A stretch of 64,000 bases of DNA from Caminibacter pacificus (GTDB lineage Bacteria; Campylobacterota; Campylobacteria; Campylobacterales; Nautiliaceae). This document shows, in pieces, positions 20,097 to 35,091 of this stretch; position 1 is the stretch's first letter; each line of letters begins with the position of its first letter. The stretch lies in assembly GCF_003752135.1 (NCBI RefSeq), contig NZ_RJVK01000001.1:372001-436000 (forward strand). Reading direction: 5' to 3'. Both the position numbers and the translations under genes were made by a program. Under the pieces are notes generated by a model. It did no database searches. It had not been told where the DNA came from and saw only the letters and a program-made list of their open reading frames with translations.

Positions 20097-20108
20097 TTCA
20101 TCTCAAAT

Positions 20109-20185
20109 GTCCCCGTAGCTCAGCTGGATAGAGCACCACCCTGCGGAGGTGGGGGTCGTGCGTTCGAATCGCGCCGGGGACGCCA
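20109..20185 (+). tRNA. tRNA-Arg (anticodon GCG), CCA encoded
   Basis: A full cloverleaf can be drawn. The acceptor stem is GTCCCCG/CGGGGAC, the D stem GCTC/GAGC, the anticodon stem CCACC/GGTGG around loop CTGCGGA, and the T loop TTCGAAT. The discriminator G and CCA are encoded. The anticodon GCG reads CGC and CGU without the usual A34-to-inosine editing. Its 3' end is the attachment site of the element at 20186-26110. Confidence 0.95.
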
Positions 20186-20190
20186 AGTAT
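20169..20190. repeat. attL: 3' end of tRNA-Arg, direct repeat with 26094-26115
   Basis: The 14-bp core CGCCGGGGACGCCA (20172-20185) is repeated exactly at 26097-26110. Counting flanks, 20 of 22 positions match (TCGCGCC against TCACGCC, and AGTAT against TGTAT). This is the classic left junction of an element integrated in a tRNA 3' end that restores the tRNA. Confidence 0.85.
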
Positions 20191-20232
20191 CTTTCTCAGT
20201 AATCCCCGAAATTTCGGACTTTCAAAGCATTT

Positions 20233-20451
20233 TTAACAATTTTGTGTAACCTGCTTGTGTAACCCCTGAACCATTTTAAGTTCGCTTTTTAATGCTTCCA
20301 GCGTTTCTTCTAATATCTCAGTTTCCGCCATAATATATCTTGCGAACTTAATGTCATCCGTTTTGTTATATAGCTCTTCGTTATGCTTTATTCTTTCTTC
20401 ATAGAACTCAATCGTTTTTTTTAATTTTTGTAAGTCTTTATTATCACTCAT
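20233..20451 (-). CDS. hypothetical coiled-coil protein of the element
   Basis: A 72-residue protein, highly charged and predicted to be one or two long helices (residues 5-65) with heptad spacing. No known domain is recognised. Its 3' end overlaps two copies of the TTGTGTAACC motif, which encode part of its VTQNC tail. It lies last in the - strand gene series of the element. A directionality or accessory role is conceivable from size and position, but that is inference. Confidence 0.55.
   Translation of the reverse strand: MSDNKDLQKLKKTIEFYEERIKHNEELYNKTDDIKFARYIMAETEILEETLEALKSELKMVQGLHKQVTQNC
20242..20264. repeat. two TTGTGTAACC motifs at the left end of the element
   Basis: Copies at 20242-20251 and 20255-20264, spaced 13 bp apart, lie 57 bp inside attL. 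Three further copies in the same orientation lie near the right end (25911-25944). Iterated short sites at both ends suggest arm-type integrase binding sites. Confidence 0.6.
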
Positions 20452-20461
20452 TTTTAACCCT

Positions 20462-21088
20462 TTAAAAAGGAATCTCTTCTTCTTCTTTTACGCTTCTTTC
20501 GGCTTGCTTTGTAGCAATATCTAATGCGATATCTTTAACAAGCATATGTTTTATACGTTCATCACTCGTAATATCATATATATTCTTTTTGACATAATCT
20601 ACGAGACTGCTTACGGCAAAAAATTCGCCAAAATTTGCGAATTTTAACTCTATCTTCTTATTATAACCTTTGATATTTTTAATATTATCATAGTAAAGCT
20701 CGATGTTAAAATAAAACTTAGCTCCCGTAACATATACTTTTATTAAAAAATACAGCTCATCAGTAATATTAACTATTATATCAGCACCACGCATTACATT
20801 ATTTTTTTCCTTAATTTCAACTCTTAATCCCATTTCTTTTTCGACATTTTCAAAAAATATTTTAATTTCACCATATAAACAATTTAGCCACAAAGAGTTC
20901 TTATACATACTATTGTATTTATTCCGAACAAGCTTGTTAAATAAAAATAAATTACTTAAAAAGTTACTATACCTCCGATGAACTTTTCTTTTTACAAAAT
21001 ATACAAGAAGATAAAAAACATCAGCACTTTTCATATGTTTTCCATCATTAAAACTTTCAAGTTTTTCAAAAAATTTTTCTCTATTCAT
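20462..21088 (-). CDS. hypothetical element protein with SSB-like acidic tail
   Basis: A protein of about 208 residues that I do not recognise as a family. It ends VKEEEEIPF, which closely resembles the acidic DDDIPF tip by which single-stranded DNA-binding proteins recruit replication and repair enzymes. The body is basic with mixed helix and strand (a beta-rich centre near 115-165). I place the start at the second ATG (21088), 5 nt after AAAGGAG. A ssDNA-binding or replisome-recruiting role next to rep is plausible inference. Confidence 0.6.
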   Translation of the reverse strand: MNREKFFEKLESFNDGKHMKSADVFYLLVYFVKRKVHRRYSNFLSNLFLFNKLVRNKYNSMYKNSLWLNCLYGEIKIFFENVEKEMGLRVEIKEKNNVMRGADIIVNITDELYFLIKVYVTGAKFYFNIELYYDNIKNIKGYNKKIELKFANFGEFFAVSSLVDYVKKNIYDITSDERIKHMLVKDIALDIATKQAERSVKEEEEIPF

Positions 21089-21120
21089 AAATACTCCTTT
21101 CATTACTTTTTCATTATTTT

Positions 21121-21936
21121 TTAAAGATTTAATAATTCTTCTTTCACTTCGGAATCCGGGACGTAAACTACCTCTACATAATCCTTATCATACACCTTTT
21201 CAACATTTCCGTCATTATCAACATAAAAAATTTTATGTTTTTTAGTCACAGTAATGTTATAGCTTAAATAGATAAGCTTACTTTCTAACTGCTTCAATGT
21301 CTTATAAACGATTTTTTTCAAACGTTTATAACTGATGTCTTTTTTCTTTTCTTCTTCCATAAACGCCTTAAACGCTTCCCAATCCTTGCTCTTACGGATG
21401 TCAAAATTAATCCAATAATCCGCTTTCGGTAGTTTTACGTTTTCCATAATTTCCACTACAATTTCCGTCATCTCATCTAATATTTTGGTATAATTATTAA
21501 AAGCTTCTCTGTAAGCTTTTTTCCCTACTTTATTTAATTGAACTTCGTTTTCCGACAAAAACTCTTTTATTAATCGTATTTTTAATTCCTGCGTTTCCAA
21601 AAATTTAATAAAAGCCTCTTTCATTTGATTAAGCTTATAATCACGTCCTAAAAATTTATTCTTTTCTAACTCGTAGAACTTCGCCCACATTTTGTTTATT
21701 TCCAATTTTAAGAATTCGTTATACATACTTGTCATCTCAAATTCTTTTTCAAAAGACCATACCTCTTTCACAACCACATAGTTGTGAATTTTACGCATAC
21801 CTTTTAACCCGACAAGCCCCGGAATTAAACTTTTCAAAAAGGATTCCGACGGCATCTCCCTATCCTTATAAACCATATTAACACTTAGATTAAGGATATT
21901 TTCGTATCGGTTAAACCACTCATCATCGCCGTATTT
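21121..21936 (-). CDS. downstream open frame, probable C-terminal part of a frameshifted Rep
   Basis: This frame is open from just before the rep stop to 21121. From ATG 21876 it would give 251 aa, but that ATG has no Shine-Dalgarno sequence, and the next ATG (21858) has AGGGAG abutting it. The 20 codons upstream of 21876 (KYGDDEWFNRYENILNL...) read like real protein. A +1 slip on CTT at 21938-21940 in rep would enter this frame exactly, giving Rep plus about 271 residues. The sequence is mostly helical and charged with a beta-rich C-terminus; no domain is recognised. Alternatives are independent initiation or a frameshift mutation. Confidence 0.55.
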   Translation of the reverse strand, partial: KYGDDEWFNRYENILNLSVNMVYKDREMPSESFLKSLIPGLVGLKGMRKIHNYVVVKEVWSFEKEFEMTSMYNEFLKLEINKMWAKFYELEKNKFLGRDYKLNQMKEAFIKFLETQELKIRLIKEFLSENEVQLNKVGKKAYREAFNNYTKILDEMTEIVVEIMENVKLPKADYWINFDIRKSKDWEAFKAFMEEEKKKDISYKRLKKIVYKTLKQLESKLIYLSYNITVTKKHKIFYVDNDGNVEKVYDKDYVEVVYVPDSEVKEELLNL

Positions 21937-21950
21937 AAAGATAATCCTTT
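21935..21950 (-). promoter_or_regulatory. candidate programmed +1 ribosomal frameshift site
   Basis: On the - strand AAAGGA (21950-21945) is followed by TTAT, then CTT (21940-21938) and the stop TAA. Slipping CTT by +1 to TTT puts the ribosome in frame AAA TAC GGC, which stays open to 21121. The prfB window is AGGGGG TAT CTT TGA. SD-like run, spacing (4 nt against 3), slippery CTT and following stop all correspond. Confidence 0.55.
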
Positions 21951-22777
21951 AATTCTTCTTCCAGCTCATCTGTAAAATGAGGAAGGATTTTTTCAAAATC
22001 CCGTCTCTTTAAATAAGCTTGCGAATGCGTAAAAATTCTTATCCTGTTTTCTTTTCTCCACCCGTCCAATACATATAGGTTTTCTTCATTATTATCCAAA
22101 AGCGTTTTTCGTAAATATTTAAGTAAATAACCGCTCCCCTTATCTACATCTTTTAGAACTTCAATTTTATATTTTCTTCCAAGGCTAAAAAGCTTAATCT
22201 TGCTTTTAACTATTCTTATAAAATCATCCACAAGCCATTCCGGAAGCCAAGCGACGAAATGCTCGTGTGCCGTGCCGTCCTTGTGTGCTTCGACAGCTTT
22301 TATGTAAGGAATATTATAACCTTTTCTGTATTTTCCATAACTTTTAAAATGTCTTAAAATTTCTCTTGAAGCCTTTTGTAGCAACTTATATCCCTCTTTT
22401 ATCGTATAGCCCTTATACCTTGGATTAAATACGTGCTTTCCAGTCCTTTTGTTTATACGGAATCTGTGATATTTTGACGGGAGCGTAAGCGTTACAAAAA
22501 TAGGCACTAACCCCTTTTCCACAGCTTCTCTGCTTATATAGTCAGCCACCCCTTTGTAATAGTGATAATCAAGCTCAAACTTCTTTTTAAGTGAATATCT
22601 CATTCCAACAAACTCATCCAGATGTAACAAATGTAAAATATGCTTATCCAGATAATTAATCGTCTTCCGTTCTTTTTCTTTTGCTATTTTTATCCAATTT
22701 TCTCTCATTTTCTTAATGACTTTATCTGCCGACACTTTTTTATTAATAGTCAAGTTGTTTTGAGATTTCGCACTCAT
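21935..22777 (-). CDS. HUH-type replication initiator (Rep) protein
   Basis: A rolling-circle-type replication endonuclease candidate of 280 aa. FVTLTLPSKYH (near residue 97) is the conserved strand before the active site, AHKDGTAHEHFVAWLP contains the paired histidines of an HUH motif, and GSGYLLKYLRKT supplies a candidate nucleophilic Tyr. It would nick one strand at an origin. The second ATG (22777) is chosen because AAGGAG then lies 5 nt away. The gene ends with AAG GAT TAT CTT TAA, strikingly like the prfB frameshift window. Confidence 0.75.
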   Translation of the reverse strand: MSAKSQNNLTINKKVSADKVIKKMRENWIKIAKEKERKTINYLDKHILHLLHLDEFVGMRYSLKKKFELDYHYYKGVADYISREAVEKGLVPIFVTLTLPSKYHRFRINKRTGKHVFNPRYKGYTIKEGYKLLQKASREILRHFKSYGKYRKGYNIPYIKAVEAHKDGTAHEHFVAWLPEWLVDDFIRIVKSKIKLFSLGRKYKIEVLKDVDKGSGYLLKYLRKTLLDNNEENLYVLDGWRKENRIRIFTHSQAYLKRRDFEKILPHFTDELEEELKDYL

Positions 22778-22797
22778 CATAGCTCCTTACGTTTTAT

Positions 22798-22813
22798 TCT
22801 ATTTATATCTTTT
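22798..22813 (-). promoter_or_regulatory. repeated promoter-like 16-mer upstream of rep
   Basis: On the - strand AAAAGATATAAATAGA occurs 21-36 nt before the rep ATG. The identical 16-mer lies upstream of the relaxase gene (24202-24217). It contains a -10-like GATATAAAT. Sharing between the two genes suggests common control. Confidence 0.5.
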
Positions 22814-22866
22814 GTGATTAATTCTAATAAAAAATCTCTCAAAAAATTGAAAAGAGAAAAAATTTC

Positions 22867-24072
22867 TCAAATTTCTATTGTATGTCCTCTTTTTTCCACT
22901 TTGTTTTTAAACTTAACGAACTCTTCATAAATCTCTTTTAATGTATCCTTTCTCGCTTCTTTTTTTAATTTGCTAAGGTAATGGAAGTCCTCTTTATTAA
23001 ATATCTTTTCTTGCTCTTTTTCTTGGAGTTTTTTATTAATATTAATCATCTGTTTTCTTAGCGAACTTATTTCCGCTTGTAAGTCTTTTATCGTAAGCCT
23101 TAATTCTTTGTTCTCTTCCGCCAGCTTCACGGAATCCAATTGTTTAACCTTTTTAATCGTTTCTCTCGCTTTCAAGTTCTCATCAATAAGTCGCTTATTT
23201 TCTTCTTTTAATTTAAGGTTCTCAGCTTTGAGTTCTGAATTCTCAAAATTTTTCTCTCCAACCTTTTGCTTTAATTGAAGGTTCTCTTCTTTCAATTTTT
23301 CGTTTTCTTTTTCCAAAACACCGATTTCAGTTTTTAAATAATTTAAAAACTTCCCGAAAAGCGTTATAACGTCCTCACGTTTAGCACGTCCAAAGCTTAA
23401 AAATTTTTCAAGTGCCTTATCAAATTTATTGATATATTTCTCAATTTTCTCATCATCAAGTTTAATGTTTTGTTTTAATTCCCGTAAAGCTTCATTCTCT
23501 TTCTTTTTCATTTCCTTGTAAGTGTGGATGTCAACGTGTTTTCTCTTTTTTCCCCTTTCGCCCCTTTCCATTCCCAAAATGTTTGCGACATCCGTTTGAA
23601 GCTCTCTTAATACGTGGATGTTTAGCTTGTTACGCTTAACGGCTCTTCCTTCGGAATCCAAGCCACTAAACAAAATATGTCCGTGTTTGTTTATATGTTT
23701 TTTCCCTTCGTCATCAATATACCCCTCATCGTTGTGAACCGCCACTTGATAAACTTTTACGTCCAATTTCTTTTCCAGCATCCTTGCCACTTTTTTTAAG
23801 TCCTGTAAGGTATGATGTTCGTCTAAATTCACAACGGCGTTCATAAGTGTAGTTGCTCTTTTTTGTAGTTTTTGTCCCGTCCGTTCCGTGTATTTTTTGC
23901 TTTTTTCTTCCAAGTCCTTTTTGTATATCGAAATGGCTTCCCGCGCGGTTCTGTCAAACTCATTTTTACTTTTGTCGAATATACTATTAACGGTATCTTT
24001 TTCTCTTGTGTTATGCCAAAATTCTCCTACGTGGGCTTTTTGTATGTTTATGCTCGCTATTCTCTTTGCCAT
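22867..24072 (-). CDS. MobV/Pre-like mobilization relaxase with coiled coil
   Basis: A 401-residue protein. The N-terminal 180 residues resemble plasmid mobilization/recombination relaxases: HNDEG at residues 103-107, then HINKHGHILF with the HxH metal motif near 120-122, then LGMERGERGKKRKHVDIHTYK near 157, the place of the family's GL.RG segment. Residues 240-370 form a long coiled coil. It should nick an origin of transfer, and the palindromic region just upstream (24091-24188) is the natural candidate. The ATG follows AAAGGAGAG. It needs a conjugation system supplied in trans. Confidence 0.75.
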   Translation of the reverse strand: MAKRIASINIQKAHVGEFWHNTREKDTVNSIFDKSKNEFDRTAREAISIYKKDLEEKSKKYTERTGQKLQKRATTLMNAVVNLDEHHTLQDLKKVARMLEKKLDVKVYQVAVHNDEGYIDDEGKKHINKHGHILFSGLDSEGRAVKRNKLNIHVLRELQTDVANILGMERGERGKKRKHVDIHTYKEMKKKENEALRELKQNIKLDDEKIEKYINKFDKALEKFLSFGRAKREDVITLFGKFLNYLKTEIGVLEKENEKLKEENLQLKQKVGEKNFENSELKAENLKLKEENKRLIDENLKARETIKKVKQLDSVKLAEENKELRLTIKDLQAEISSLRKQMININKKLQEKEQEKIFNKEDFHYLSKLKKEARKDTLKEIYEEFVKFKNKVEKRGHTIEI

Positions 24073-24090
24073 ATTCTCTCCTTTACATCC

Positions 24091-24188
24091 CGAGCTTGCG
24101 AGGGCTCACGCAACGCCGTAAGGCGTGGAGTGAGGCCTCACTCCGCATCCTAACGGGTTGCTTCGTTCGGCAAACGCTCGCAAGCTCG
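24091..24188. promoter_or_regulatory. candidate oriT/nick region with nested inverted repeats
   Basis: A GC-rich island in AT-rich DNA directly upstream of the relaxase gene. CGAGCTTGCGAG (24091-24102) is repeated inverted at 24177-24188. Inside are an 18-bp perfect palindrome, GGAGTGAGGCCTCACTCC (24127-24144), and a hairpin CGCC-GTAA-GGCG (24114-24125). Relaxase target sites typically sit here. It could also serve as a replication origin for the HUH Rep. Confidence 0.6.
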
Positions 24189-24201
24189 CATTTGCTTTTA
24201 A

Positions 24202-24217
24202 TCTATTTATATCTTTT
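24202..24217 (-). promoter_or_regulatory. repeated promoter-like 16-mer upstream of mob
   Basis: The - strand 16-mer AAAAGATATAAATAGA is identical to the one before rep. It lies on the far side of the palindromic island, so the island would be in the relaxase mRNA leader. Confidence 0.5.
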
Positions 24218-24267
24218 AGAGTTTAAAAAAATACGACCCGGGAAAAGGGCAAGAGGGAAAGAAAGAA

Positions 24268-24459
24268 TTAAGCGTTGTAAGTTGAGAATGAGTTTGTTTG
24301 TTCGCTGTTAGTTGCATTCAGTAACGTTGTAAGTTCAGACTGGATGTCTTGAACTTCGTTTTCAAGCTTAGCAACTTTTGCTTTGTAACTTGCTAATTCT
24401 TTTTCTTTTTTCTCTAATTTGGTAATCAAATTTTTGATTTGTTTAAAATTCGTTTTCAT
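24268..24459 (-). CDS. hypothetical leucine-zipper peptide of the element
   Basis: A 63-residue peptide with a heptad-patterned helix (about residues 8-50, with Leu and Ile at a/d positions) and a Ser/Thr/Asn-rich tail. No known domain. The ATG follows AAAGGAG. It sits between the integrase and relaxase genes, where many mobilizable plasmids carry a small relaxosome accessory protein; that role is inferred from place and size only. Confidence 0.55.
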   Translation of the reverse strand: MKTNFKQIKNLITKLEKKEKELASYKAKVAKLENEVQDIQSELTTLLNATNSEQTNSFSTYNA

Positions 24460-24559
24460 AATAACTCCTTTCGTGTTTTGATTAATTATAATAAAGAATT
24501 AAAGAGAGAAAAAATTTGTTTATTTTTCGGAAAGATTTTTGTAGTTTTCGGAGTTTTGT

Positions 24560-25909
24560 TTAAAAGGGAAATTCTTCGCCGTCCGTTATTTTCGGCATAT
24601 TTTTTAGCATTTCTTTTTCTTTCTCTTTTTCTAAGTAACTATCAACTTTTGCGGTAACAAAAAAAGCCCACGTCTTCAATAAGTGTCTTCGTTGCTCCAA
24701 GTAATCCGTGCGGGTATAAGCTTGCCCGACTTTATTTTCTACCACGTGCATCAATTGTTCCTCAATGTAAAGAGGATTTTCCCCTCGTTCCTTTAATATT
24801 GTGGAAAATGTGCTTCGGATTCCGTGGGCGGTTGTCTTACCATCCGATAGTTTTTTTATTTTAGCGTTAAGTGTATTTTCACTCATCACTTCGCCATTTT
24901 TACCTTTAAATATAAGTCCCTTTGGATGTTTTTCAATCTGCTTTAAATCTTCCAAAATTTTACGCATTGTATTGCTTAACGGAAGTCGGAAGTCCTTTTT
25001 TGTTTTCGTTATTTCTCCCGGTATTTCAATCACTTCCTTTTTCCAATTAACCATATCCCACGTAAGCCGTCTAAGTGTCCCGTTTCGCAAGGCACTCAAT
25101 ATCAAAAACATCAGAGCATATTTGGTGTATATGCTTGTGGCTTTGTGTTTATTACTCTTAACGTCATAATCTGTTTTTAGTTGCCAGATGTTAAAATAAA
25201 GTTCCTGTATGTCAGTAATGTTTGTAGTCGCTTTAAAGTGCGTAACCTGATATTTTTCCCCCAGTAAGCGTTCAATGTCTTTCATCGTAAGGTTCGCTAT
25301 CGGATTATGTTCCACGTCATACTTCAAGTAAAGGTATTTATAAAAAAGATTAAGGTTGTTTTTTAAGCGTTTTATTGTAGCCATCTTGTTTGACTGATAT
25401 GTAGTTTGCTTAGGATTAACGTTCAGCGTTTTAACTTTTTGAAAGAAGTCGATAATATCTCTCTTTGTTATTTCTCGGACATCCTTATCCCCTAATAGCC
25501 TAATGATGTAATTTTGAATCCTGTTTTGTTCCTGCCTCGTTCTCGTTACTAAAAATTCCTGTATGATGTTTTTTAGTAAGAATTTCTCACGTTCCTTTGC
25601 TTTTTTTGTTTTTAAAACTTTGTCTCTTTTACTTTCACGGATTCCGAGCTCTTTCCTAATAAGTTCCGTTGTCTCATTATAGTCCATATCCCTAATAGAA
25701 AGAAGAATTTTGTCTTTAAGCTTTTTGACATCAGTAAGGCTCATCTCATCGAAATCGCATAAGGTCGCTTTAATTTGTTTGCCATTCTTTTTTGTAAGAA
25801 GCCTGTAAACTTTTTTATTTTTAAGGACTTCCACGTAAAGTCCCTGTTCTACTCTGTAAAGTTCACGTTTGCCATTCCACTTTAATGCTTTTATTTCACG
25901 TAAAGTCAT
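24560..25909 (-). CDS. int: tyrosine recombinase/integrase
   Basis: Site-specific integrase of about 449 residues with an N-terminal arm-binding region (DUF4102-like, MTLREIKALKW), a core-binding domain and a catalytic domain. The catalytic residues are visible in order: Arg in SALRNGTLRRLTW, Lys in TKTKKDFRLPLS, HxxR in TAHGIRSTFS, His in EEQLMHVVENK and Tyr in QAYTRTDYLEQ. I start at ATG 25909 behind a G-run; the longer frame to 25954 merely translates the GTGTAACCC repeats. The C-terminus ITDGEEFPF also resembles an SSB tail. It lies at the attR side, as usual for tRNA-targeting elements. Confidence 0.93.
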   Translation of the reverse strand: MTLREIKALKWNGKRELYRVEQGLYVEVLKNKKVYRLLTKKNGKQIKATLCDFDEMSLTDVKKLKDKILLSIRDMDYNETTELIRKELGIRESKRDKVLKTKKAKEREKFLLKNIIQEFLVTRTRQEQNRIQNYIIRLLGDKDVREITKRDIIDFFQKVKTLNVNPKQTTYQSNKMATIKRLKNNLNLFYKYLYLKYDVEHNPIANLTMKDIERLLGEKYQVTHFKATTNITDIQELYFNIWQLKTDYDVKSNKHKATSIYTKYALMFLILSALRNGTLRRLTWDMVNWKKEVIEIPGEITKTKKDFRLPLSNTMRKILEDLKQIEKHPKGLIFKGKNGEVMSENTLNAKIKKLSDGKTTAHGIRSTFSTILKERGENPLYIEEQLMHVVENKVGQAYTRTDYLEQRRHLLKTWAFFVTAKVDSYLEKEKEKEMLKNMPKITDGEEFPF

Positions 25910-25910
25910 C

Positions 25911-25944
25911 GTGTAACCCCCTTGTGTAACCCGTTGTGTAACCC
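25911..25944. repeat. three GTGTAACCC motifs at the right end of the element
   Basis: Copies at 25911-25919, 25922-25932 and 25934-25944 (the last two TTGTGTAACCC), spaced 12 bp, lie directly before the integrase ATG. They match the pair near the left end. As well as arm sites, they could let integrase repress its own gene. Confidence 0.65.
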
Positions 25945-25994
25945 GTGGCACCATTGTATCAAAAAAGCCCGTAAAAACACAAATCGTCTTTCAT

Positions 25995-26015
25995 TTTGTC
26001 AAATTATTTGACAAA
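25995..26015. promoter_or_regulatory. palindromic operator-like site upstream of int
   Basis: TTTGTCAAA and TTTGACAAA are separated by TTA, a perfect 9-bp inverted repeat about 90 bp before the integrase start. On the - strand it includes a TTGACA. A dimeric regulator site is likely. Confidence 0.5.
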
Positions 26016-26093
26016 TGCGTATTTTCGGGACTTTTGAGAGTTTTTCGTTTTACAAAAATAATGAAGTTTCGGGAAGTTCGGAGAGCTTTCGGG

Positions 26094-26115
26094 TCACGCC
26101 GGGGACGCCATGTAT
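26094..26115. repeat. attR: partial copy of the tRNA-Arg 3' end
   Basis: The core CGCCGGGGACGCCA at 26097-26110 duplicates 20172-20185. Only the 3' end of the tRNA is present here, as expected at the distal junction. The remaining intergenic DNA to 26234 shows no gene. Confidence 0.85.
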
Positions 26116-26234
26116 TTTTTCAAAAAAACTCTAAAACTCGGCTTTCTAAATAATACACAAAACAAAAAGTAACTTTAATTAAATAATTTAGAATTGTAAA
26201 AAGGGAAAAAGAAGAAAAGTTTTATCTATGAAGA

Positions 26235-27140
26235 TTATTTAAAGCTTTTCAATATCTCACAGGCTTTTTCAAGTCCTAAATTACACGATTTTTGAAAATA
26301 ATTAACTATTTCTGAAGGTACTGAAACATTATTAGTGTTTTTGTTTTGTGATACTATATCATCCAGTTTTATCATCGCATATATAAAACATGTTTTTGGG
26401 TTGTTGAATTCATCACATGTTCTTTTTGCAATTGATAATACTCTTTGTTCATTTTGTTTAATTTGTTTATTTTCCGCATACATTTTAATTTCAAAAACAC
26501 ATGCTCTTTCGTATCCAAGGTCACACGCTTTTTTTATATATTTTTTCGCTTTTTCATCATCTTTTGGCAGAGTTGATAAACCTTTATAATATAAAATCCC
26601 TAAAACATAACATGAAGGTTGGTGTTTTAGAAAACACGCTCTTTTTAAATAATTTAATCCTTGTTGGGTTTTGCCTTTCGTTTCTAAATATTTTTTTGCC
26701 AGCATAAAACATCCATATCCAGCCATATCCGGTTGATTTCCAATTTTGCATAATTTATCTAATAACTCTTTATTATTGTAATTTTTTTCATATTTTTCTT
26801 TTAGTTGAAGTAACTTAGCACAACCCACTTCATTATTTAAGTCACATGATTTTTTAATATAGCTTTCTCCTAATTGTTTAATTCCTTTTTTTTCAAAAAG
26901 ATATTCACCGTATACTGCACAAGCGACGGCATTATTATTTTTATTACATTCTTCTTTTAAAAATTTGTATTTAGAATCAGGATTTTCATTAGATGAATTG
27001 TTTAAAATTTTTTTTACTTTTATATACTCATTGATTTGTTTGTAAATGTTAGCAGTATTTACTTTAAAAATATCATCTTTGTTTAACTCACCTTTTAATA
27101 AGCTGATGGTGATAAAAATAAATAAAACTACCTTTTTCAT
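26235..27140 (-). CDS. exported Sel1/Hcp-like repeat protein
   Basis: A 301-residue protein with a short signal peptide (residues 1-17) and several Sel1-type helical repeats, with paired cysteines in the pattern CDLNNEVGC, CFLKHQPSC and CDLGYERAC. This is the architecture of Helicobacter cysteine-rich proteins, in which each repeat holds a disulfide. Such proteins are periplasmic or secreted and bind partners; the target is unknown. It is a paralogue of the gene just upstream and probably cotranscribed with it (16-bp gap). Composition is AT-rich. Confidence 0.8.
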   Translation of the reverse strand: MKKVVLFIFITISLLKGELNKDDIFKVNTANIYKQINEYIKVKKILNNSSNENPDSKYKFLKEECNKNNNAVACAVYGEYLFEKKGIKQLGESYIKKSCDLNNEVGCAKLLQLKEKYEKNYNNKELLDKLCKIGNQPDMAGYGCFMLAKKYLETKGKTQQGLNYLKRACFLKHQPSCYVLGILYYKGLSTLPKDDEKAKKYIKKACDLGYERACVFEIKMYAENKQIKQNEQRVLSIAKRTCDEFNNPKTCFIYAMIKLDDIVSQNKNTNNVSVPSEIVNYFQKSCNLGLEKACEILKSFK

Positions 27141-27156
27141 TGTTTTCCTTTTTTAA

Positions 27157-28047
27157 TTATTTAGAGAATTTTTCTAAAAAGTCACAAGCTTTTTTATTTC
27201 CTAATATACATGATTTTTTTATGTAATGTACTATTTCTTTTGGTAAAACTACTTTTTTCTTTTTGGTTTTTTCAAAAATATCATCCATTCTAATTATTGC
27301 ATATTGAAAACAGATTTCAGCGTCATTAAAATCATCGCATAGTTTTTTTATAATAGTTCTCATTCTCTTATTGTGACGTATTTTTTGTCCTTCGTCCAAA
27401 TAAATTTTTAATTCCATATAACAAGCTCTTTTTTCTCCTAAATCACAAGCTCTCTTTAAATAATTTTTTGCGATATTTTCGTCTTTTTTTACATTATAAT
27501 CTCCTTTATTATACAACAGTCCCAAAATATAACAAGCTTTTGGATTTTTTAAATAACAAGCTTTTTTTATATATGGTAAACCTTTTTTAGTTTCATTGTT
27601 TTTTAAATATAAAACTCCGCTGTGTAAACATGCATTACCAGCATATTTTGCTCTGTATCCAATGTTACATGTTTTTAATGCTAAATCTTTAAGCTCGCTA
27701 TCTTTTTTTTGTTTATAATGCATTTCAAAAAAAATTAGATTATAACAACCTATTTCGCTGTTGAGGTCACAAGATTTTTTTAAATATTTTTCACCCAATG
27801 ATAAATTTTTTTCGTCACTTGATACATAATATTCTCCCAAAACATTGCAAATAAATGCATTATTTTTATTGCATTCTTCTTTTAATAATTTTAATCTTTT
27901 GATTTTGTCGTCAGTTTTTTCTATTATGCTGAGAAATTTGTTTTTTTCTAAGATTTCTCTTTGTTTGTTTTTTTCATCAATTTTGAAATTTTCACCGAAT
28001 ACTAAACTAAAAATAAAAACAATTAACAATAATTTTTTTATTTTCAC
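27157..28047 (-). CDS. exported Sel1/Hcp-like repeat protein, paralogue
   Basis: A 296-residue protein of the same plan: signal peptide KKLLLIVFIFSLVFG, then Sel1 repeats with cysteine pairs such as CDLNSEIGC, CYLKNPKAC and CDLGEKRAC. It aligns with its downstream neighbour along its length, so the two arose by tandem duplication. I start at the GTG (28047), which follows AAAGGAGAAAGG and puts the signal peptide at the N-terminus; the longer ATG frame to 28110 would bury it. Confidence 0.8.
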   Translation of the reverse strand: MKIKKLLLIVFIFSLVFGENFKIDEKNKQREILEKNKFLSIIEKTDDKIKRLKLLKEECNKNNAFICNVLGEYYVSSDEKNLSLGEKYLKKSCDLNSEIGCYNLIFFEMHYKQKKDSELKDLALKTCNIGYRAKYAGNACLHSGVLYLKNNETKKGLPYIKKACYLKNPKACYILGLLYNKGDYNVKKDENIAKNYLKRACDLGEKRACYMELKIYLDEGQKIRHNKRMRTIIKKLCDDFNDAEICFQYAIIRMDDIFEKTKKKKVVLPKEIVHYIKKSCILGNKKACDFLEKFSK

Positions 28048-28209
28048 CCTTTCTCCTTTTTTAAGCTTAATTAGTCTATAATTATAAAGTTTTTTAAATA
28101 AATAAGCCAAATCATACTTAAAAGAATTAATGAAAGTCTTGTTTTTTGTTAATAATAGTAACTATTTATAAATTTTGTATTTAAAGAAAAAAGAAGAAAA
28201 AGTTAGATT

Positions 28210-28821
28210 TTAATCAATACATTTGACGGTTTTTAGCCAAATACTGTCTTTAAATCTCGTTTTCGAGGTTTGAGAAGCCAAATAGTTCAAAAACTCTTTG
28301 TAAAATTCCCATTTTGCGTTTTGTGTGAGTCTTTGTTTGCTACCTAAAATATTGAAATATTTATCAATAAATTTTAAATACCAAAGCTCTTGGGTTATTT
28401 TCTCTTCATTTGCTTTTAAGTATTTGTATTCTTTTTCGCTTCCGCCAATAGTCGTAGCTTGTTTTACCAAATCTAAAATTTTATTTATAACTTCTTCTTC
28501 GTTTCCTAAGATTTCTTCTAATTGATAATTGTAGTATTTTTGAAATATTTCGGAAATATGCAATTTTAATTTATTGTCACTAATTGTTGTATCTTCCAAT
28601 ACGTCATGAAATAATAAAGTACTTGCAATTAGAAATCTGTCTTTAATGTTTATATTATTGTCATCTTCCATAACCATTCCGGCACATGTGACAGGATGTA
28701 GATAAAACGGCGTAAATTTGTCGTGTTTTCTAACTAAGTTGTTTTCGTTTTTTGCAAATTCGGTATGAAAATAGATTGACAAATTGATTAGTTCCTTAAA
28801 TAACAGTAATTGACTATTCAT
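28210..28821 (-). CDS. stand-alone HD-domain hydrolase, SpoT/MESH1-like
   Basis: A 203-residue soluble protein with the HD pattern of RelA/SpoT hydrolase domains: FYLHPVTCAGMV near residue 40, LLFHDVLEDTTI near residue 70 and a later Asp in LKFIDKYFN. No synthetase, TGS or ACT domain is present. It may hydrolyse (p)ppGpp or another nucleotide as a small alarmone hydrolase. The motif match is clear for an HD fold, less so for the substrate. It stands alone after the Sel1 pair. Confidence 0.65.
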   Translation of the reverse strand: MNSQLLLFKELINLSIYFHTEFAKNENNLVRKHDKFTPFYLHPVTCAGMVMEDDNNINIKDRFLIASTLLFHDVLEDTTISDNKLKLHISEIFQKYYNYQLEEILGNEEEVINKILDLVKQATTIGGSEKEYKYLKANEEKITQELWYLKFIDKYFNILGSKQRLTQNAKWEFYKEFLNYLASQTSKTRFKDSIWLKTVKCID

Positions 28822-28886
28822 TTTAAATCCTTAATGTCAAATTTATGTAATACTAACACAAAAGTATTACTTTTTTGTAAAACTTT

Positions 28887-29570
28887 TTATTTTGTTATTT
28901 TTTTAAGTTCCCCTACTCTTTTTTTCGTTTCATTATAGAGACATTTGTATATATTGCTGTTTTTTTGAGGCTTTATAGGGTATTTGCATTTTAAAGTGAT
29001 GTATTTTAACCACGCTCTTTGGATGTTTTTTAGTCTTGTTTTTTCTTTTGGAGTTAATATTTTCATTTTTCGTATATATGTCTTATTTAAGTTTTTATCT
29101 TCCTGGAGATAAAGCTTTTTGTATGTTGTGGGTGTGATTGTAATTTTGCAGTTTTTTGTACTGAGAAAGTAAAGCTTTTCGTTTTGCAGTACTCTTTTGC
29201 CTTTTGTAGGGAAGTTTATCCACTCGGTAGTGTAATGCTTTTGTGTTATTAAAAGGTTTTTGCGAGATATATAAGAAAAATTTCTCGTAATTAAATTTTC
29301 ATTATTTCCTATTGAAAATCTAATTATAAAAGCGGTTTTATTCGAGTCGTAAATATATGAAAAATTATCGGTATCGAATATTTTTATGTTACATTTGGGA
29401 TTTATTGTGTAGATATTCGTAGGATTTATTGAGGAGTTGTTATCTTCGTATCTAAATATGAATTCGTTATCTAAGCTGTTAATTTTATGATTAACAATCA
29501 TAAACGCTAATTCCTGATAAGTAAGAGCAAAAGAGAGTTTTATAAGAAGTAAGAAAATTATTTTTTTCAT
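28887..29570 (-). CDS. exported protein with LprI-like (DUF1311) C-terminus
   Basis: A 227-residue protein with a signal peptide (KKIIFLLLIKLSFA). The N-terminal 150 residues are beta-rich and unrecognised. The C-terminus, KNIQRAWLKYITLKCKY followed by YKCLYNETKKRVGEL, fits the lysozyme-inhibitor LprI family (DUF1311) with its paired Cys. It might protect against lysozyme-like attack, but the long N-terminal region makes this tentative. ATG 29570 is chosen over the upstream TTG by spacing from AAAGG. Confidence 0.6.
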   Translation of the reverse strand: MKKIIFLLLIKLSFALTYQELAFMIVNHKINSLDNEFIFRYEDNNSSINPTNIYTINPKCNIKIFDTDNFSYIYDSNKTAFIIRFSIGNNENLITRNFSYISRKNLLITQKHYTTEWINFPTKGKRVLQNEKLYFLSTKNCKITITPTTYKKLYLQEDKNLNKTYIRKMKILTPKEKTRLKNIQRAWLKYITLKCKYPIKPQKNSNIYKCLYNETKKRVGELKKITK

Positions 29571-29627
29571 CAATTGCCTTTTTAGACAATTATATTTGAA
29601 TAAAATGTATCGAAAATGACAAAAAGG

Positions 29628-30422
29628 CTATTGGGTTTTTAGCCATTTTTGCATTATTTTGTCTCTTAAACCGCTTTTGTCAAGTTTATCGATTTCATTA
29701 TTGAGTTTTTTTACTAATTCTTTTGCATGAGGATAACTTTTCGGAATAAATAGTAAAAATTTTGAAACTTTCAGTTTGTCATAAGGTACATATGAAATAT
29801 CTTTTGGTATTTTACATTTTCCAATCATTTGATACCCAAGAATTGCTTCTTTAGAAGCGATCATAATATCACATCTTCCGGCCGAAATTTTTTTAAGTAC
29901 CGCACATTGACTTGTGGCTTCTTGGTTTATTTTTTTGTTTTTATTAAGATTTAAAACTTTATAATAAAAGTAAATATTGTACCCGTTTACGTCACATATT
30001 TTTAGTTTGTTCGGGTCTGTTTTTAAAATATGAAGAAGTTTTTCTTTTGTAAATTTCTTTTTTGAATACCAAACTACTTGATGAGTATAATAGATTGGTT
30101 TGGTGTAATAAAGCACTTTTGCTCTTTTTTCAGAATAAATACCCGGAAAAATAACATATTTCTTTGCTTTGTCGTATCTACTTACAAGATATGTACATCT
30201 TTTCCAAGGTATCAAATCAAGCTTATAACTCATATTTAAATCTTTAAAAATAACATCGTACATATCTTTTAATGCACCTACGATATGTTTTTTATCTACT
30301 TTTCCGTTTACTCTTTTATAAAAAACAAACGGCGGCCATTCGGCAGCATCATCGCATATTCGAATCGTGTTTTCTTTCGCAAATAGACTCAGAGCTATTA
30401 GTAATCCCAAAATTATTCTCAT
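29628..30422 (-). CDS. periplasmic solute-binding protein, family 3
   Basis: A 264-residue protein with a signal peptide (residues 1-15) and the bilobal SBP_bac_3 pattern: IRICDDAAEWPPFVFY at the start of the mature protein, YTKPIYYTHQVVWYS in the middle and SAGRCDIMIASKEA in the second lobe. It lies 10 bp after the SpoIIE phosphatase gene with no ABC permease nearby. It may therefore act as a ligand sensor for that membrane protein rather than in transport; this is inference from position. Confidence 0.75.
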   Translation of the reverse strand: MRIILGLLIALSLFAKENTIRICDDAAEWPPFVFYKRVNGKVDKKHIVGALKDMYDVIFKDLNMSYKLDLIPWKRCTYLVSRYDKAKKYVIFPGIYSEKRAKVLYYTKPIYYTHQVVWYSKKKFTKEKLLHILKTDPNKLKICDVNGYNIYFYYKVLNLNKNKKINQEATSQCAVLKKISAGRCDIMIASKEAILGYQMIGKCKIPKDISYVPYDKLKVSKFLLFIPKSYPHAKELVKKLNNEIDKLDKSGLRDKIMQKWLKTQ

Positions 30423-30432
30423 CCTCTCTCCT

Positions 30433-32457
30433 TTATAGTTTTAGTCCTATTACGGCGATATCATCTGTTCTCGGATTATCTTTTTGATATTTTTTTAATT
30501 CTTCCAAAAACATCTCTTTTTGCATTATAAAATCTAAATTTTGATATTTAAGAATTAATTTTTTAAACCTTTCTTTTCCGAAAGGAAGTTCTTTTTCTCC
30601 TCCTATCTGGTCTAAAAATCCGTCTGTAGTTAAATAAAGTTTTAATTCATCATGAATTTTCATTTCAAATTCTTTAAATTTATAATCAATAGGAGTAAAC
30701 ACGTCACCGACAGAGCTCTTGTCGCCTCTTATAACATCAACATTGTTATCTTTTATAAAAAATAGAGGAAGGTTTGCGCTTGAGAATTTAATAATGTTTT
30801 TGTTTTTGTCATAATAAATTATAGCTCCGTCAAAACCGGCGTTTGAATTAGAATCTTTATCATATTGTTTTAAAATTTCTTTAATAGACTTATTGAATTT
30901 AGAAAGAATTTTTGATGTTGATATTTCTTTGTTTGTATGGGATAGTTCGTTTATTATCTGAATTTGGATAGCTTTTACGAGCATTGTCATTAGTGCTCCG
31001 TGAACTCCGTGTCCCGTACAATCGGCCAACATTAAAATATATTCTCCGTCTCTAACTTCATCAAGAAAATAGATATCTCCGCCAAGAACGTCTTTTGGTT
31101 CCCAAATTATTAGATAATCTTTAAAAGCTTTTTTGAATATTCCATGAGAAGGCAAGATTGCTTTTTGAATTAACGAAGCATATCTTATGCTCTCTTTTGT
31201 CATATTTAGAAGTTGTTTGATTTTACTTGTTTTGATTTCAACAAGTTCTTCAAGATGATTTTTAAGCTTTTCAAGTTCTTTTTTATCTGTCACGTTAAAT
31301 AAAATATTAATATATCTACAGCTATTATTTTCATAAGAGCATTTTTTCGTTATATTAGATTTTAGCCAAAGTTCTTTTCCGTATTTAGTTTTACATTTAA
31401 CTTCACCGTTCCAATTACCCTCTTTTTCTACGGTTTTTATTATTTTTTTCAAATCGACATTACACAAAACCTCTTTTCTTTTATTGTTAATTTCATCTTT
31501 AGAGTAACCGCAAACTTTCATAAATGCCGTTGTTACTTCTATAACGTTTCCGTTTTCATCAAATTCGCAAATCATAATGTTTTTATCGATTACGTCAACA
31601 AGTTCGGCGAGTTCTCTGTGAAGTTTAGAACTTACAGATATTCCTTGGTTTGTAAATTTTGCTATTTCTCCGAATTCGTCATTTGTGTCTATATCAATAG
31701 GCTCGATTTTTTGTTTAGGATCGGATAGAAAATTAAAGAATCTCTCAAGCCCAGCTTTTATTTTCATAAGTGGTATGTTTATAAATTTAATTAGAATAAA
31801 TAAAAGGAAAAGTAATGTAAAAATAGCCGCAATAATAAAATAAACGAATAATTTTTTTTCTTTTTTTTGAGTTTCTTTGTATATTTTTTCAAATTTTAAA
31901 TTTACGAGCTCTAGTTCTTTTTGTTGAATTTCTTCTAAGTGTTTTAATATCGGGCTTAAATCGTAATAAATTTTTACAAATCCTATAGGTTCGGAATTAT
32001 AAATAAGTTCGGTTTTTATATATTTATATTTTTCAAAATTTTTGGGAAGTTTGTTTTTTGTAAATATTTTTTTTCCGTCTTTTTTATATGCACTGATAAA
32101 GATTGATTTTCCTACGGTATCATAAACTTCTACCGCTTTTATACTTTTTTCTTCAAGTAAAACGTCCGATATAATTTTTTTTGCGCTGCCTTCTTCGTAG
32201 TTGAATAAAGAGTAACTTAAAGCGGCTTGTGAATATTTGATTAGTTTTTTTAAGCTTTCAAGTGTTTTTTTAATTGTTTTTTGTTTTTGCTCTTCAATAA
32301 ACTTTATAACGAATTCTTTTTGTTGAGTGTTTAAGGAGTTTAGGATTTCTCTTTGAGCGTCTTTTATGGATGTAATTAGCCAAAACCAAATTATTAATTG
32401 TGAGACAACTATAATTGAAATTACTTTGAAAATAATACTGTTTCTAAATTTTACCAT
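30433..32457 (-). CDS. siaA: SiaA-like membrane PP2C/SpoIIE phosphatase with PAS domain
   Basis: A 674-residue sensor phosphatase. Two membrane helices (about 10-28 and 203-225) enclose a periplasmic sensor, followed by a HAMP-like region, a PAS domain (VIDKNIMICEFDENGN, with PAC around 370-390), a coiled coil and a C-terminal SpoIIE domain with GGDIYFLDE and LADCTGHGVHGALMT as metal motifs. By analogy with Pseudomonas SiaA, it should dephosphorylate SiaC in response to an external signal. siaB lies 29 bp upstream and the binding-protein gene 10 bp downstream. Confidence 0.85.
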   Translation of the reverse strand: MVKFRNSIIFKVISIIVVSQLIIWFWLITSIKDAQREILNSLNTQQKEFVIKFIEEQKQKTIKKTLESLKKLIKYSQAALSYSLFNYEEGSAKKIISDVLLEEKSIKAVEVYDTVGKSIFISAYKKDGKKIFTKNKLPKNFEKYKYIKTELIYNSEPIGFVKIYYDLSPILKHLEEIQQKELELVNLKFEKIYKETQKKEKKLFVYFIIAAIFTLLFLLFILIKFINIPLMKIKAGLERFFNFLSDPKQKIEPIDIDTNDEFGEIAKFTNQGISVSSKLHRELAELVDVIDKNIMICEFDENGNVIEVTTAFMKVCGYSKDEINNKRKEVLCNVDLKKIIKTVEKEGNWNGEVKCKTKYGKELWLKSNITKKCSYENNSCRYINILFNVTDKKELEKLKNHLEELVEIKTSKIKQLLNMTKESIRYASLIQKAILPSHGIFKKAFKDYLIIWEPKDVLGGDIYFLDEVRDGEYILMLADCTGHGVHGALMTMLVKAIQIQIINELSHTNKEISTSKILSKFNKSIKEILKQYDKDSNSNAGFDGAIIYYDKNKNIIKFSSANLPLFFIKDNNVDVIRGDKSSVGDVFTPIDYKFKEFEMKIHDELKLYLTTDGFLDQIGGEKELPFGKERFKKLILKYQNLDFIMQKEMFLEELKKYQKDNPRTDDIAVIGLKL

Positions 32458-32486
32458 TTATTTCCTCAATTCTTTTTCCGGTTTTT

Positions 32487-33026
32487 TTAATCTTTTCCTA
32501 CTATCGCTTTAAATCTGAAAATCATTTTGTCATTACCGATGTCTTCAAAACTATATTCGATTTTTTTTGATTTTTTCGCAATTTCATAAAACCCTATTCC
32601 ACCGCCTTTTTGATGAGAATCTCTTTTTGCTCTTCTTAGCTCTCTATAGATTTTTTTTATTTCATCTTTTGATAAACTTAAGATATGTTCTAATATTTTC
32701 TTTATTTTATCGGCATCTTCTTTTCTTACGACATTTTGAGAATATACGAAATAGCCGTCATTTTCGTTTTTTCCCACTAAAATAAGTCCTTTGGTGTCGA
32801 ATTCTTTTTCGACTTTTTTCGTATAGTTCATTAAATTTTGAGAAAGCTCGATAAAAACTACAAAAATGTTATTTGCAAGAGTCATTGATAAAAGCGACTT
32901 TTCAGCTTCTTTTTCTAATGCTTCAGTCATTGCAACGATAAGCGATTGAGTAAAATACCCGCCGTATGTCAAAAATACTATTCCGTCTTTTTGCAAAAGT
33001 TTTTCAAGTTCCGAAGCGTTATACAT
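32487..33026 (-). CDS. siaB: SiaB-family protein kinase (GHKL-like)
   Basis: A 179-residue protein matching the SiaB family: VFLTYGGYFTQSLIV near the start, VFIELSQNLMNYTKK as the N-box-like helix, and KGGGIGFYEIAKKS as the glycine-rich ATP-lid region. In Pseudomonas, SiaB phosphorylates SiaC and opposes SiaA. It lies 3 bp after siaC and 29 bp before siaA, so partner switching is encoded as a unit. Confidence 0.88.
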   Translation of the reverse strand: MYNASELEKLLQKDGIVFLTYGGYFTQSLIVAMTEALEKEAEKSLLSMTLANNIFVVFIELSQNLMNYTKKVEKEFDTKGLILVGKNENDGYFVYSQNVVRKEDADKIKKILEHILSLSKDEIKKIYRELRRAKRDSHQKGGGIGFYEIAKKSKKIEYSFEDIGNDKMIFRFKAIVGKD

Positions 33027-33029
33027 TTA

Positions 33030-33407
33030 TTAGTCCTTTTCGACGAGTCTGAAATCTATGTCAGGAAAGTCTTCGATAAAATCTTCTCCTGCTTCTTTTG
33101 CAGTATCGTTTTCTTTGTCATAAATCCAATTTATTGTAATTTTTGATTTATCTTTATTTTCGTATAAAATATCAAAAAGATTAAAAAAAAGTTTTGACGT
33201 ACTTGAGTTGAAATATACTATTTCCATATTTACTGTCGTAGTGTCGTTTGGGTTTTTAATATATTCTTTGACCCAATCAATAATCGGTTTATAAAATTCA
33301 AAGGTGTTTTCGGGATATGATTTTCCTTTCATTTCAATGAGACCCTTTTGAGGGTCCAAAGTAATTTCCGGAGTGTATCTGGTAGCGGGAATATAGACTT
33401 TTTCCAT
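33030..33407 (-). CDS. siaC: SiaC-family (DUF1987) partner-switching protein
   Basis: A 125-residue cytoplasmic protein with the DUF1987 features IPATRYTPEITLDPQKG and SYPENTFEFYKPIIDW, plus YFNSSTSKLFF (residues 65-75), where the phosphorylatable Ser/Thr should lie. In the known system, unphosphorylated SiaC activates the diguanylate cyclase SiaD. Here the ATG overlaps the stop of an HD-GYP gene instead (TAATG), so SiaC may control that protein. Confidence 0.9.
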   Translation of the reverse strand: MEKVYIPATRYTPEITLDPQKGLIEMKGKSYPENTFEFYKPIIDWVKEYIKNPNDTTTVNMEIVYFNSSTSKLFFNLFDILYENKDKSKITINWIYDKENDTAKEAGEDFIEDFPDIDFRLVEKD

Positions 33408-34771
33408 TAATTTTCCTTTTCTAATTTTTTTATGTACTCTTCTATATTTACTTCATCGATTTGATCTTTTGATAAGTAAATATCGGCATATTTTTTATAT
33501 AATCCAGATTTTAAAAAGACTTTTAATATTTTTTTATCAAGTTCCCCGTTTAGAGCTTTGGATACCAAAATTTCAATGGCTTCGGAAAGTTTTTTCTTTA
33601 ATTTGTATGGTCTGTCGTGTGCCGTTAAAGCTTCGAAAATATCGGCAATTGCCATGATTCTTGAAGGAATAGGAATTTCGTCGCCTTTTAATTTTCTCGG
33701 ATATCCTTTTCCGTTTAATGTTTCGTGATGTGCTCCTGCATATAAAGGTACGTTTTTGAATTTTTCGGGAAACGGAAGAGATTCGAGCATAAGGATTGTG
33801 TTGATTACGTGTTCTTGTATTTTAAAGTACTCTTCTTTTGTTAAAGTACCTCTTGGAATAGAAAGATTGTATATTTCTCCAAGATTATATAGGTTTTCAG
33901 GAATTTCTATTTTAAAACCTTTATTTTTAAATTTTTCTATATCTTTTTTAGAACGTTTAATAATATGATGTTTTTTATCGGAAAGAAGGTATTCTTTTGC
34001 TGGAGGTTTGACAATACAACCGTTTTCTTTCATTCTTTTTTTCTCTTCTCTTGAAATTCCAAGAGTATTATCAAAATATCTTGTCCATGTTCGATTTGCG
34101 ATTTGTTTTAATTTTTTAAGATCTTCTTCATCTAAAGATTCCGTACCGTAATTTAATTTCGCTATAAATTCAAACTCTTTTTGAAGCTTTTCTTGTTCTT
34201 TTTTTAACCACTCATCCACTTCTTTTTCATCTTCACCGTTTAATTTTCTTTTTAGTGCTTCAATTATTAAATCTCTGTATAATACTTCAAATCTTGTTCT
34301 TATTTCATGAATTCTATTATAAACCGTCTCTAATTTTACGGCTTTATCCATAACAAAATCGGGAGTTGCAATTTTACCGGCGTCATGTAGCCATGCCGCA
34401 GTAGAAATCTCTTTTTCCTGATCCTCGTTTTCTATTTTAAAATCCACTTCATCGGATTCACTGACGGCTTTTGCAATCCAATTGGTTAAAATAGGAACTC
34501 TTTCACAATGAGCACCCGTATATTCGCTTTTCATATCGATTGCCGTAGCAATTACTTTTATAAAAGCGTCTATTAGTTCTTGTTGATTTTTTTGTAATTT
34601 TTTTACTTCTTCATATTTTCTTTGAAGTTCGTCATATTCTTTTCTTTGTCTTTTATCGGATAATAAAAGAATTTTTTCTTCTCTTTTTAGGTTTTTTATT
34701 AATTTCTCTATCAGTTTATCTAAATTATCTTTGGTTTTTTCAATCTCTTCTAACAACTCGTAATTAAGCAT
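33407..34771 (-). CDS. HD-GYP domain protein, putative c-di-GMP phosphodiesterase
   Basis: A 454-residue cytoplasmic protein. An N-terminal coiled coil (1-70) precedes an HD-GYP domain: AAWLHDAGKIATP near residue 130, HHETLNGKGYPRKL near residue 350 and IMAIADIFEALTAHDRPYK. An insertion of about 150 residues rich in charged helices separates the HD and HHE parts. If active it would cleave c-di-GMP. It is the first gene of the operon and overlaps siaC, so SiaC phosphorylation state may tune it. No GGDEF protein is nearby. Confidence 0.85.
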   Translation of the reverse strand: MLNYELLEEIEKTKDNLDKLIEKLIKNLKREEKILLLSDKRQRKEYDELQRKYEEVKKLQKNQQELIDAFIKVIATAIDMKSEYTGAHCERVPILTNWIAKAVSESDEVDFKIENEDQEKEISTAAWLHDAGKIATPDFVMDKAVKLETVYNRIHEIRTRFEVLYRDLIIEALKRKLNGEDEKEVDEWLKKEQEKLQKEFEFIAKLNYGTESLDEEDLKKLKQIANRTWTRYFDNTLGISREEKKRMKENGCIVKPPAKEYLLSDKKHHIIKRSKKDIEKFKNKGFKIEIPENLYNLGEIYNLSIPRGTLTKEEYFKIQEHVINTILMLESLPFPEKFKNVPLYAGAHHETLNGKGYPRKLKGDEIPIPSRIMAIADIFEALTAHDRPYKLKKKLSEAIEILVSKALNGELDKKILKVFLKSGLYKKYADIYLSKDQIDEVNIEEYIKKLEKEN

Positions 34772-34897
34772 TCTTCATCCCTTTATTATTGTATAGAAAT
34801 TATACAAAAAATATCTTTATTATCTGAAATTTTATAAGAGGATTTTGTCTCAGAGAGATAAAATAACTCAATTGCAAATGTAGTGTCTGGCAATAAA

Positions 34898-34904
34898 TAT
34901 TAAT
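34898..34904 (+). promoter_or_regulatory. possible -10 of the 6S-like RNA
   Basis: TATTAAT lies 7-10 nt before the GC-rich RNA begins. TTGCAA at 34873-34878 could be a -35, but the spacing of 19 is long. Weak support. Confidence 0.3.
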
Positions 34905-34910
34905 TAATTT

Positions 34911-35085
34911 AAAACCCAGGAGGGCGTTCACGCAGTGACTTTGGGCTCCCGCGAGCCACAAAGTGGGGATAGGAGGGCCGGTTTAGGGGCAGGCAAAGCC
35001 CGCCGCACACCCCGGCCACTACCGTCTCCCCAAAAAAATTTCTTGTAGGGCCCCAAAATGTGCGGGTAGCGCTCCTCCCAGGCTC
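34911..35085 (+). ncRNA. ssrS: structured RNA, probable 6S RNA
   Basis: About 175 nt of GC-rich sequence in an otherwise AT-rich 400-bp gap. The ends pair: GGAGGGCG (34919-34926) with CGC-T-CCTCC (35070-35078). Inside, CGCA pairs with TGCG, and TTTGGG (34940-34945) with CCCAAA (35052-35057), giving a rod with internal loops. The arrangement GCGTTC...GCA on the 5' side and TGCGG...GCGCTC on the 3' side resembles E. coli 6S (GATGTTCGCA and TGCGGCGGCATCTC). SRP, RNase P and tmRNA signatures are absent. Strand is inferred; an alternative hairpin and a - strand promoter exist. Confidence 0.5.
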
Positions 35086-35091
35086 TTATGA

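Follow-up and report, generated by a model that had tools for sequence, protein, structure and literature searches.

A SiaA/SiaB/SiaC-type partner switch of Caminibacter pacificus with an HD-GYP protein as its probable output

The SiaABCD system of Pseudomonas aeruginosa combines in a single operon a PP2C phosphatase, the SiaB kinase, SiaC and a cyclic di-GMP (c-di-GMP) enzyme whose stalk carries a motif for SiaC binding, the GGDEF-type diguanylate cyclase SiaD (PMC8457831; PMC7647112). A locus of Caminibacter pacificus raises the question of whether such a switch could also govern an enzyme of a quite different class: in the 64,000-nucleotide stretch analyzed here (contig NZ_RJVK01000001.1, positions 372,001 to 436,000; hereafter the window), genes for SiaA-, SiaB- and SiaC-like proteins occur together with a gene for an HD-GYP protein. 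A SiaABCD system in the strict sense has the GGDEF effector SiaD, whereas the probable effector here is the HD-GYP protein. We consider it very probable that the locus specifies a SiaA/SiaB/SiaC partner switch with an HD-GYP phosphodiesterase effector in place of the diguanylate cyclase SiaD.

All four genes are read from the minus strand as a tight operon with short gaps: HD-GYP (from 34771) is followed by siaC, siaB and siaA (ending at 30433). The HD-GYP gene (33407-34771; 454 residues; HD_5, E 1e-44) is the first of the operon and not the last, whereas siaD of Pseudomonas comes after siaC. At the junction TAATG its stop codon and the start codon of siaC have one base in common, bearing out the claim of a preliminary description of this DNA that the gene overlapping siaC encodes an HD-GYP rather than a GGDEF protein. 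The SiaC-family regulatory phosphoprotein (33030-33407; 125 residues; PF09345, E 8e-43) finds its best match among solved structures in P. aeruginosa SiaC (6kko/6k4f, E 1e-20) and has S68, within Y65-x-N67-S68-S69, at the position of the P. aeruginosa phosphosite T68, with Y65, N67, S69 and D79 conserved. The SiaB-family protein kinase (32487-33026; 179 residues; DUF6272, E 8e-33) likewise best matches P. aeruginosa SiaB (6kko_A, E 6e-16), scores 137 bits against a cut-off of 85 with the NF038262 (SiaB_fam_kinase) model, and contains, in the stretch ELSQN, a glutamate (E60) that aligns with the predicted catalytic E61 of P. aeruginosa SiaB. The SiaA-like phosphatase (30433-32457; 674 residues) comprises an N-terminal region, a PAS domain and a PP2C/SpoIIE domain (E 1e-16) whose metal-binding aspartates (D461, D479, D612 and D665-D666) are invariant across 30 homologs. 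None of the three proteins reaches the NCBIfam equivalog cut-off for its Pseudomonas counterpart (SiaA, SiaB or SiaC), and they are therefore best described as family members and not as strict equivalents. Their joint presence, also asserted in the preliminary description, is upheld by matches in Pfam, NCBIfam and the PDB, and at the level of sequence we regard a partner switch of the SiaA/SiaB/SiaC type with intact catalytic signatures as confirmed.

How might SiaC reach an HD-GYP protein? In the crystal structure of the SiaC-SiaD complex, the stalk-helix contacts on the SiaD side are R74, K77, V78, R80, I81, S82, D83, R84, Y85, Q86, M88, R90 and D91; T68 of SiaC hydrogen-bonds S82 and Q86 and its phosphorylation prevents binding, while the S82A-Q86A variant of SiaD forms a weaker complex and does not restore biofilm (PMC8457831). 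The AlphaFold model of the window HD-GYP protein (mean predicted local distance difference test score, pLDDT, 75; predicted template modeling score, pTM, 0.65) begins with a predicted 78-residue helix (residues 4-81), which bears a predicted SiaC-docking motif at residues 20-47 (LIEKLIKNLKREEKILLLSDKRQRKEYD; 34631-34714, minus strand). This segment matches residues 65-92 of SiaD (LSERYHKQLRRLEKVARISDRYQQMMRD) without gaps, with 12 of the 28 positions identical, among them K77/K33, S82/S38, D83/D39, Q86/Q42 and D91/D47, and with R74 aligned to R30; the SiaD contacts R74, K77, V78, S82, D83, Q86 and D91 thus correspond, at equal spacing, to R30, K33, I34, S38, D39, Q42 and D47. When SiaD 65-92 was scored on 202 open reading frames of the genome, the window HD-GYP site ranked first (47 versus 37 for the next), a score attained by 3 of 20,000 shuffles of HD-GYP residues 1-80. 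Across the SiaC-adjacent HD-GYP proteins of the two clades described below, R30, I34, D39, Q42, E45 and L49 show no variation, and K33, R41, Y46 and D47 hardly any. A mixed profile of 14 docking helices of the HD-GYP, kinase and GGDEF types, from which P. aeruginosa SiaD was left out, ranked SiaD from the SiaC-bound structure 7e6g first among all PDB sequences, at its SiaC-binding motif (residues 65-99, E 0.009); a second, weak match fell on SiaD's other motif. A PDB search with the HD-GYP N-terminus as a single sequence returned only coiled-coil noise such as syntaxin.

The phyletic distribution of the motif follows that of SiaC. SiaC was found above the cut-off in 20 of 397 Campylobacterota genomes and docking-profile matches in 17, namely 16 of the 20 with SiaC and one of the 377 without it (Fisher p 6e-24, a value that overstates independence, as the genomes are related); the lone match in a SiaC-negative genome is marginal and contains an internal stop. 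HD-GYP proteins are present in 179 of the 397 genomes, and the motif occurred in none of 20 control HD-GYPs taken from this set. These controls, together with the single marginal match in the 377 SiaC-negative genomes, disfavor the notion that the helix is a generic coiled coil. A survey of other genomes, as the preliminary description had proposed for the gene order, shows that the association recurs: a scan of GTDB genome contigs yielded 80 further SiaC loci, including ones from Vibrio, Colwellia, Marinobacterium, Methylococcaceae, Nitrospirota and SAR324. Of these, 50 have an HD-GYP with the docking motif in the vicinity of SiaC (from Campylobacterota, Gammaproteobacteria and other groups, with Vibrio, Colwellia, Marinobacterium, Methylococcaceae and SAR324 represented), a proportion that is not an unbiased estimate since the 80 are those nearest to a Campylobacterota-weighted query. 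A SiaC/HD-GYP pair like that of the window is present in the relative Sulfurospirillum cavolei (L073). The common order at the sampled loci is siaA-siaB-siaC-HD-GYP, and the two closest SiaC-bearing genomes, which belong to the same family, have two SiaC-linked HD-GYPs each. Gene linkage alone is no proof of contact, and the HD-GYP protein could be co-transcribed without touching SiaC, which would then act on some other target; we judge this highly improbable, given that the motif is confined to SiaC-bearing genomes, that the window HD-GYP is its sole carrier found in the genome, and that the linkage, in which two HD-GYP clades take part, is seen again in other phyla. The role of the HD-GYP protein as the SiaC-controlled output is thus well supported because of the operon, the cross-phylum recurrence, the SiaD-type motif and its restriction to SiaC-bearing genomes.

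Several observations weigh against this proposal. A profile built from HD-GYP helices alone fails to retrieve SiaD from the PDB at E values up to 10, and the link to SiaD therefore rests on the mixed profile and the direct comparison. R103 of SiaC, one of the residues in contact with SiaD D91 and the arginines near it, corresponds to T102 in the window protein, SiaD R80 is replaced by L36 in the window HD-GYP, and the latter has one docking motif versus two in SiaD. Four of the 20 SiaC-bearing genomes lack the motif, and some rows of the profile come from the very genomes tested, making the positive half of the association partly circular, though not the absence elsewhere. Literature searches found no experiment on any SiaC/HD-GYP pair. 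Finally, the best single-protein PDB match of the HD-GYP protein by sequence is V-cGAP3, a phosphodiesterase of 3'3'-cyclic GMP-AMP (3'3'-cGAMP).

The last point concerns the substrate. The HD-GYP signature residues H88, H129-D130, K133, H321, H348-H349, G356-Y357-P358 and D377 are present and invariant, and the top Foldseek matches of the model are the HD-GYP domains of PA4781, DvhD and PmGH. Residue 84 is a tyrosine, at what we take to be the position where the third metal site would call for a glutamate, and the standard docked clade has a glutamate there. This substitution, the V-cGAP3 match and the presence among the fold matches of DvhD, an HD-GYP solved with c-di-GMP bound, would fit a protein whose substrate is another cyclic dinucleotide, 3'3'-cGAMP, or one that serves as a c-di-GMP receptor without catalysis, with SiaC controlling that role. 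We regard such a role as unlikely: the remaining HD-GYP catalytic residues are intact, and the 30 GGDEF and 15 EAL matches in the genome point to rich c-di-GMP signaling. The window protein is the only HD-GYP of the genome, and it is predicted to hydrolyze c-di-GMP. The docking-helix profile has a single match in this genome, the window HD-GYP, and no SiaD-like cyclase was found, as none of the GGDEF reading frames recovered (30 GGDEF matches) contains the docking motif. Thus, an inactive HD-GYP core coupled with a SiaD homolog elsewhere, which the preliminary description had named as evidence against its view, is not what we see; the core of the window protein is intact, and the genome yielded no cyclase with the docking motif. 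Three sampled congeners have neither SiaC nor an HD-GYP; among four vent Epsilonproteobacteria compared earlier, Nautilia profundicola was the sole carrier, with two HD-GYP copies, and Caminibacter mediatlanticus had none (PMC2628731).

The HD and GYP halves of the protein are separated by approximately 163 residues, an insertion (33842-34330, minus strand; about residues 148-310) that AlphaFold models as helical with low confidence. It had been described as unusual, a characterization that did not hold up: the same insertion is found in HD-GYP proteins of 785-804 residues that lack the docking helix (L201, L213, L214 and L217). These proteins of about 790 residues share the core and the insertion and differ in their N-terminal region; the L201 protein is 56% identical to the window HD-GYP over 396 residues. 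Its reading as an unusual specificity element is thereby rejected, and comparison of these sequences indicates that the insertion is nothing out of the ordinary but typical of one HD-GYP subfamily.

The genes, motifs, conservation and co-occurrence described so far are direct observations; in their light, the following mechanism can be envisaged. A separate SBP_bac_3 solute-binding protein is encoded 10 nucleotides downstream of siaA (29628-30422, minus strand), and the transcription unit probably extends to this gene. Given that SBP_bac_3 is fused to the phosphatase in 22 of 30 SiaA homologs (and Phosphonate-bd in 7 of 30), the separate protein is best read as the operon's sensor, probably a periplasmic one. 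A periplasmic ligand, perceived by this protein and the N-terminal region of SiaA, would set the PP2C activity of SiaA. By homology, SiaB would phosphorylate SiaC on S68 and SiaA would remove the phosphate. Unphosphorylated SiaC could then dock onto the helix that opens each chain of a dimeric HD-GYP protein, via R30-x2-K33-I34-x3-S38-D39-x2-Q42-x4-D47, and, if the motif match is a guide, a phosphate on S68 would block docking as it does at T68 in Pseudomonas. Docking would order the coiled-coil stalk, stabilize the dimer and most likely activate the HD-GYP domain, such that SiaA signaling would lower c-di-GMP, a direction that we favor by a modest degree. The protein that binds in a classical partner switch frequently acts as an inhibitor, and the docking motif and its conservation are compatible with either sign; hence SiaC might instead dock on the same helix and hold the HD-GYP protein inactive until phosphorylation by SiaB releases it, with SiaA signaling raising c-di-GMP, the same direction as in Pseudomonas. 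We see this as possible but somewhat unlikely, as in the sole measured case with the motif SiaC binding activates SiaD by ordering the stalk dimer (PMC8457831). The earlier interpretation is thus partly supported: an HD-GYP protein as the SiaC-controlled output finds good support in operon, recurrence and motif, and c-di-GMP destruction would be its predicted activity; the further claim that the logic of the Pseudomonas system is reversed goes too far, the substrate being predicted and either sign being admissible.

The docking helix is not limited to one type of protein. A tree of HD-GYP cores has two deep clades, insert-bearing and standard, with docked members in both, and the insert clade also holds an undocked control; the helix therefore appears to have been moved between HD-GYPs. 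Near SiaC it also occurs on HATPase histidine kinases (L051, L112, L068, L030 and L115), on HATPase-CheX proteins (L032 and L055) and on GGDEF proteins (L075 and L105). A class III nucleotide cyclase (PF00211) adjoining SiaC at L035 (682-1683) has a docking-like motif (QLSKIVKISDRQQ), which suggests SiaC control of cyclic AMP or cyclic GMP. Another class III nucleotide cyclase (PF00211) adjoins SiaC at L128 (6467-7495). In the SiaC cluster of L075 (2710-5719), a docked HD-GYP accompanies a docked 223-residue GGDEF protein, and c-di-GMP synthesis and breakdown could there come under one switch; L115 and L038 each combine an HD-GYP and a histidine kinase at one SiaC locus. Together these occurrences lead us to lean toward the view that the SiaC-docking helix is a portable plug that brings enzymes of quite different kinds under the control of a single SiaC switch, in some cases two enzymes together. 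A divergent SiaC group, comprising L049 and L050 (YFNSAST) and the SiaC of G307, has no docking-motif protein nearby.

The operon is situated in a region that is variable within the genus. About 14.7 kilobases between a tRNA-Arg and the 6S RNA (20100-34905) are unmatched at four congener loci at which the flanking genes are conserved; in congener L231 the homolog of the gene at 19742-20095 lies approximately 340 base pairs beyond the 6S RNA, versus the 14.7 kilobases here. As this stretch holds the tRNA-Arg with an integrated element followed by the Sia operon, the latter belongs to an accessory region. The element at tRNA-Arg(gcg) (20109-26119), with the tRNA 3' end partly repeated at 26085-26119, is reminiscent of a small element of the rolling-circle or filamentous-phage kind; its genes include those for a GPA/G2P-type replication initiator (21935-22780) and for a tyrosine integrase (24560-25954). 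After the Sia and SBP_bac_3 genes, on the same strand, come genes for two proteins with Sel1 repeats and one with an LprI domain (26235-28110 and 28887-29573). On the other side, the GC-rich intergenic block at 34909-35087 (minus strand) corresponds to 6S (SsrS) RNA, with 45.7 bits just under the Rfam gathering threshold of 46.4 (E 3.5e-8), a fold z-score of -4.4 and a single copy kept in most genomes of the family; an extended -10 promoter (11/12) at 35121-35093 precedes it.

Compared with P. aeruginosa SiaABCD, which has a threonine phosphosite and two docking motifs, the Caminibacter system has a serine, one motif and a separate solute-binding sensor gene. HsbR/HsbA/HsbD of P. aeruginosa and BgrSTUWV/BgrR of Sinorhizobium meliloti are likewise STAS-fold partner switches over a c-di-GMP enzyme, but with STAS-domain partners rather than SiaC and with diguanylate cyclase outputs (cited in PMC8457831). 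Closest is a Campylobacterota survey (mBio 2022, PMC9239204), which predicted from gene neighborhoods a pathway in which a STAS protein passes on control by a STAS kinase (stas_STYK) and a PP2C phosphatase to a "c-di-GMP turnover enzyme", gave N. profundicola examples and cited SiaABCD. It covers the same gene set and bacterial group, so the general idea is not new; the text of the survey names neither an HD-GYP output nor a docking motif. Searches of the literature on SiaC or partner switching with HD-GYP found no paper on the pair beyond that general proposal, and none of the papers searched describes the SiaD-type docking helix on an HD-GYP, its restriction to genomes with SiaC or its occurrence on further classes of enzyme.

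In the one solved SiaC-effector complex that we found, the effector is a cyclase. Should it be the docking helix that turns an enzyme into a SiaC client, such clients would be recognizable from sequence, and S38 and Q42 would decide coupling in the window HD-GYP, as S82 and Q86 weaken it in SiaD when replaced. In C. pacificus, SiaC would then govern the only HD-GYP of the genome amid 30 GGDEF matches. More generally, our observations suggest that the Sia switch is a portable module with a swappable output, in which case SiaC would be a general output switch and not a biofilm-specific cyclase activator.

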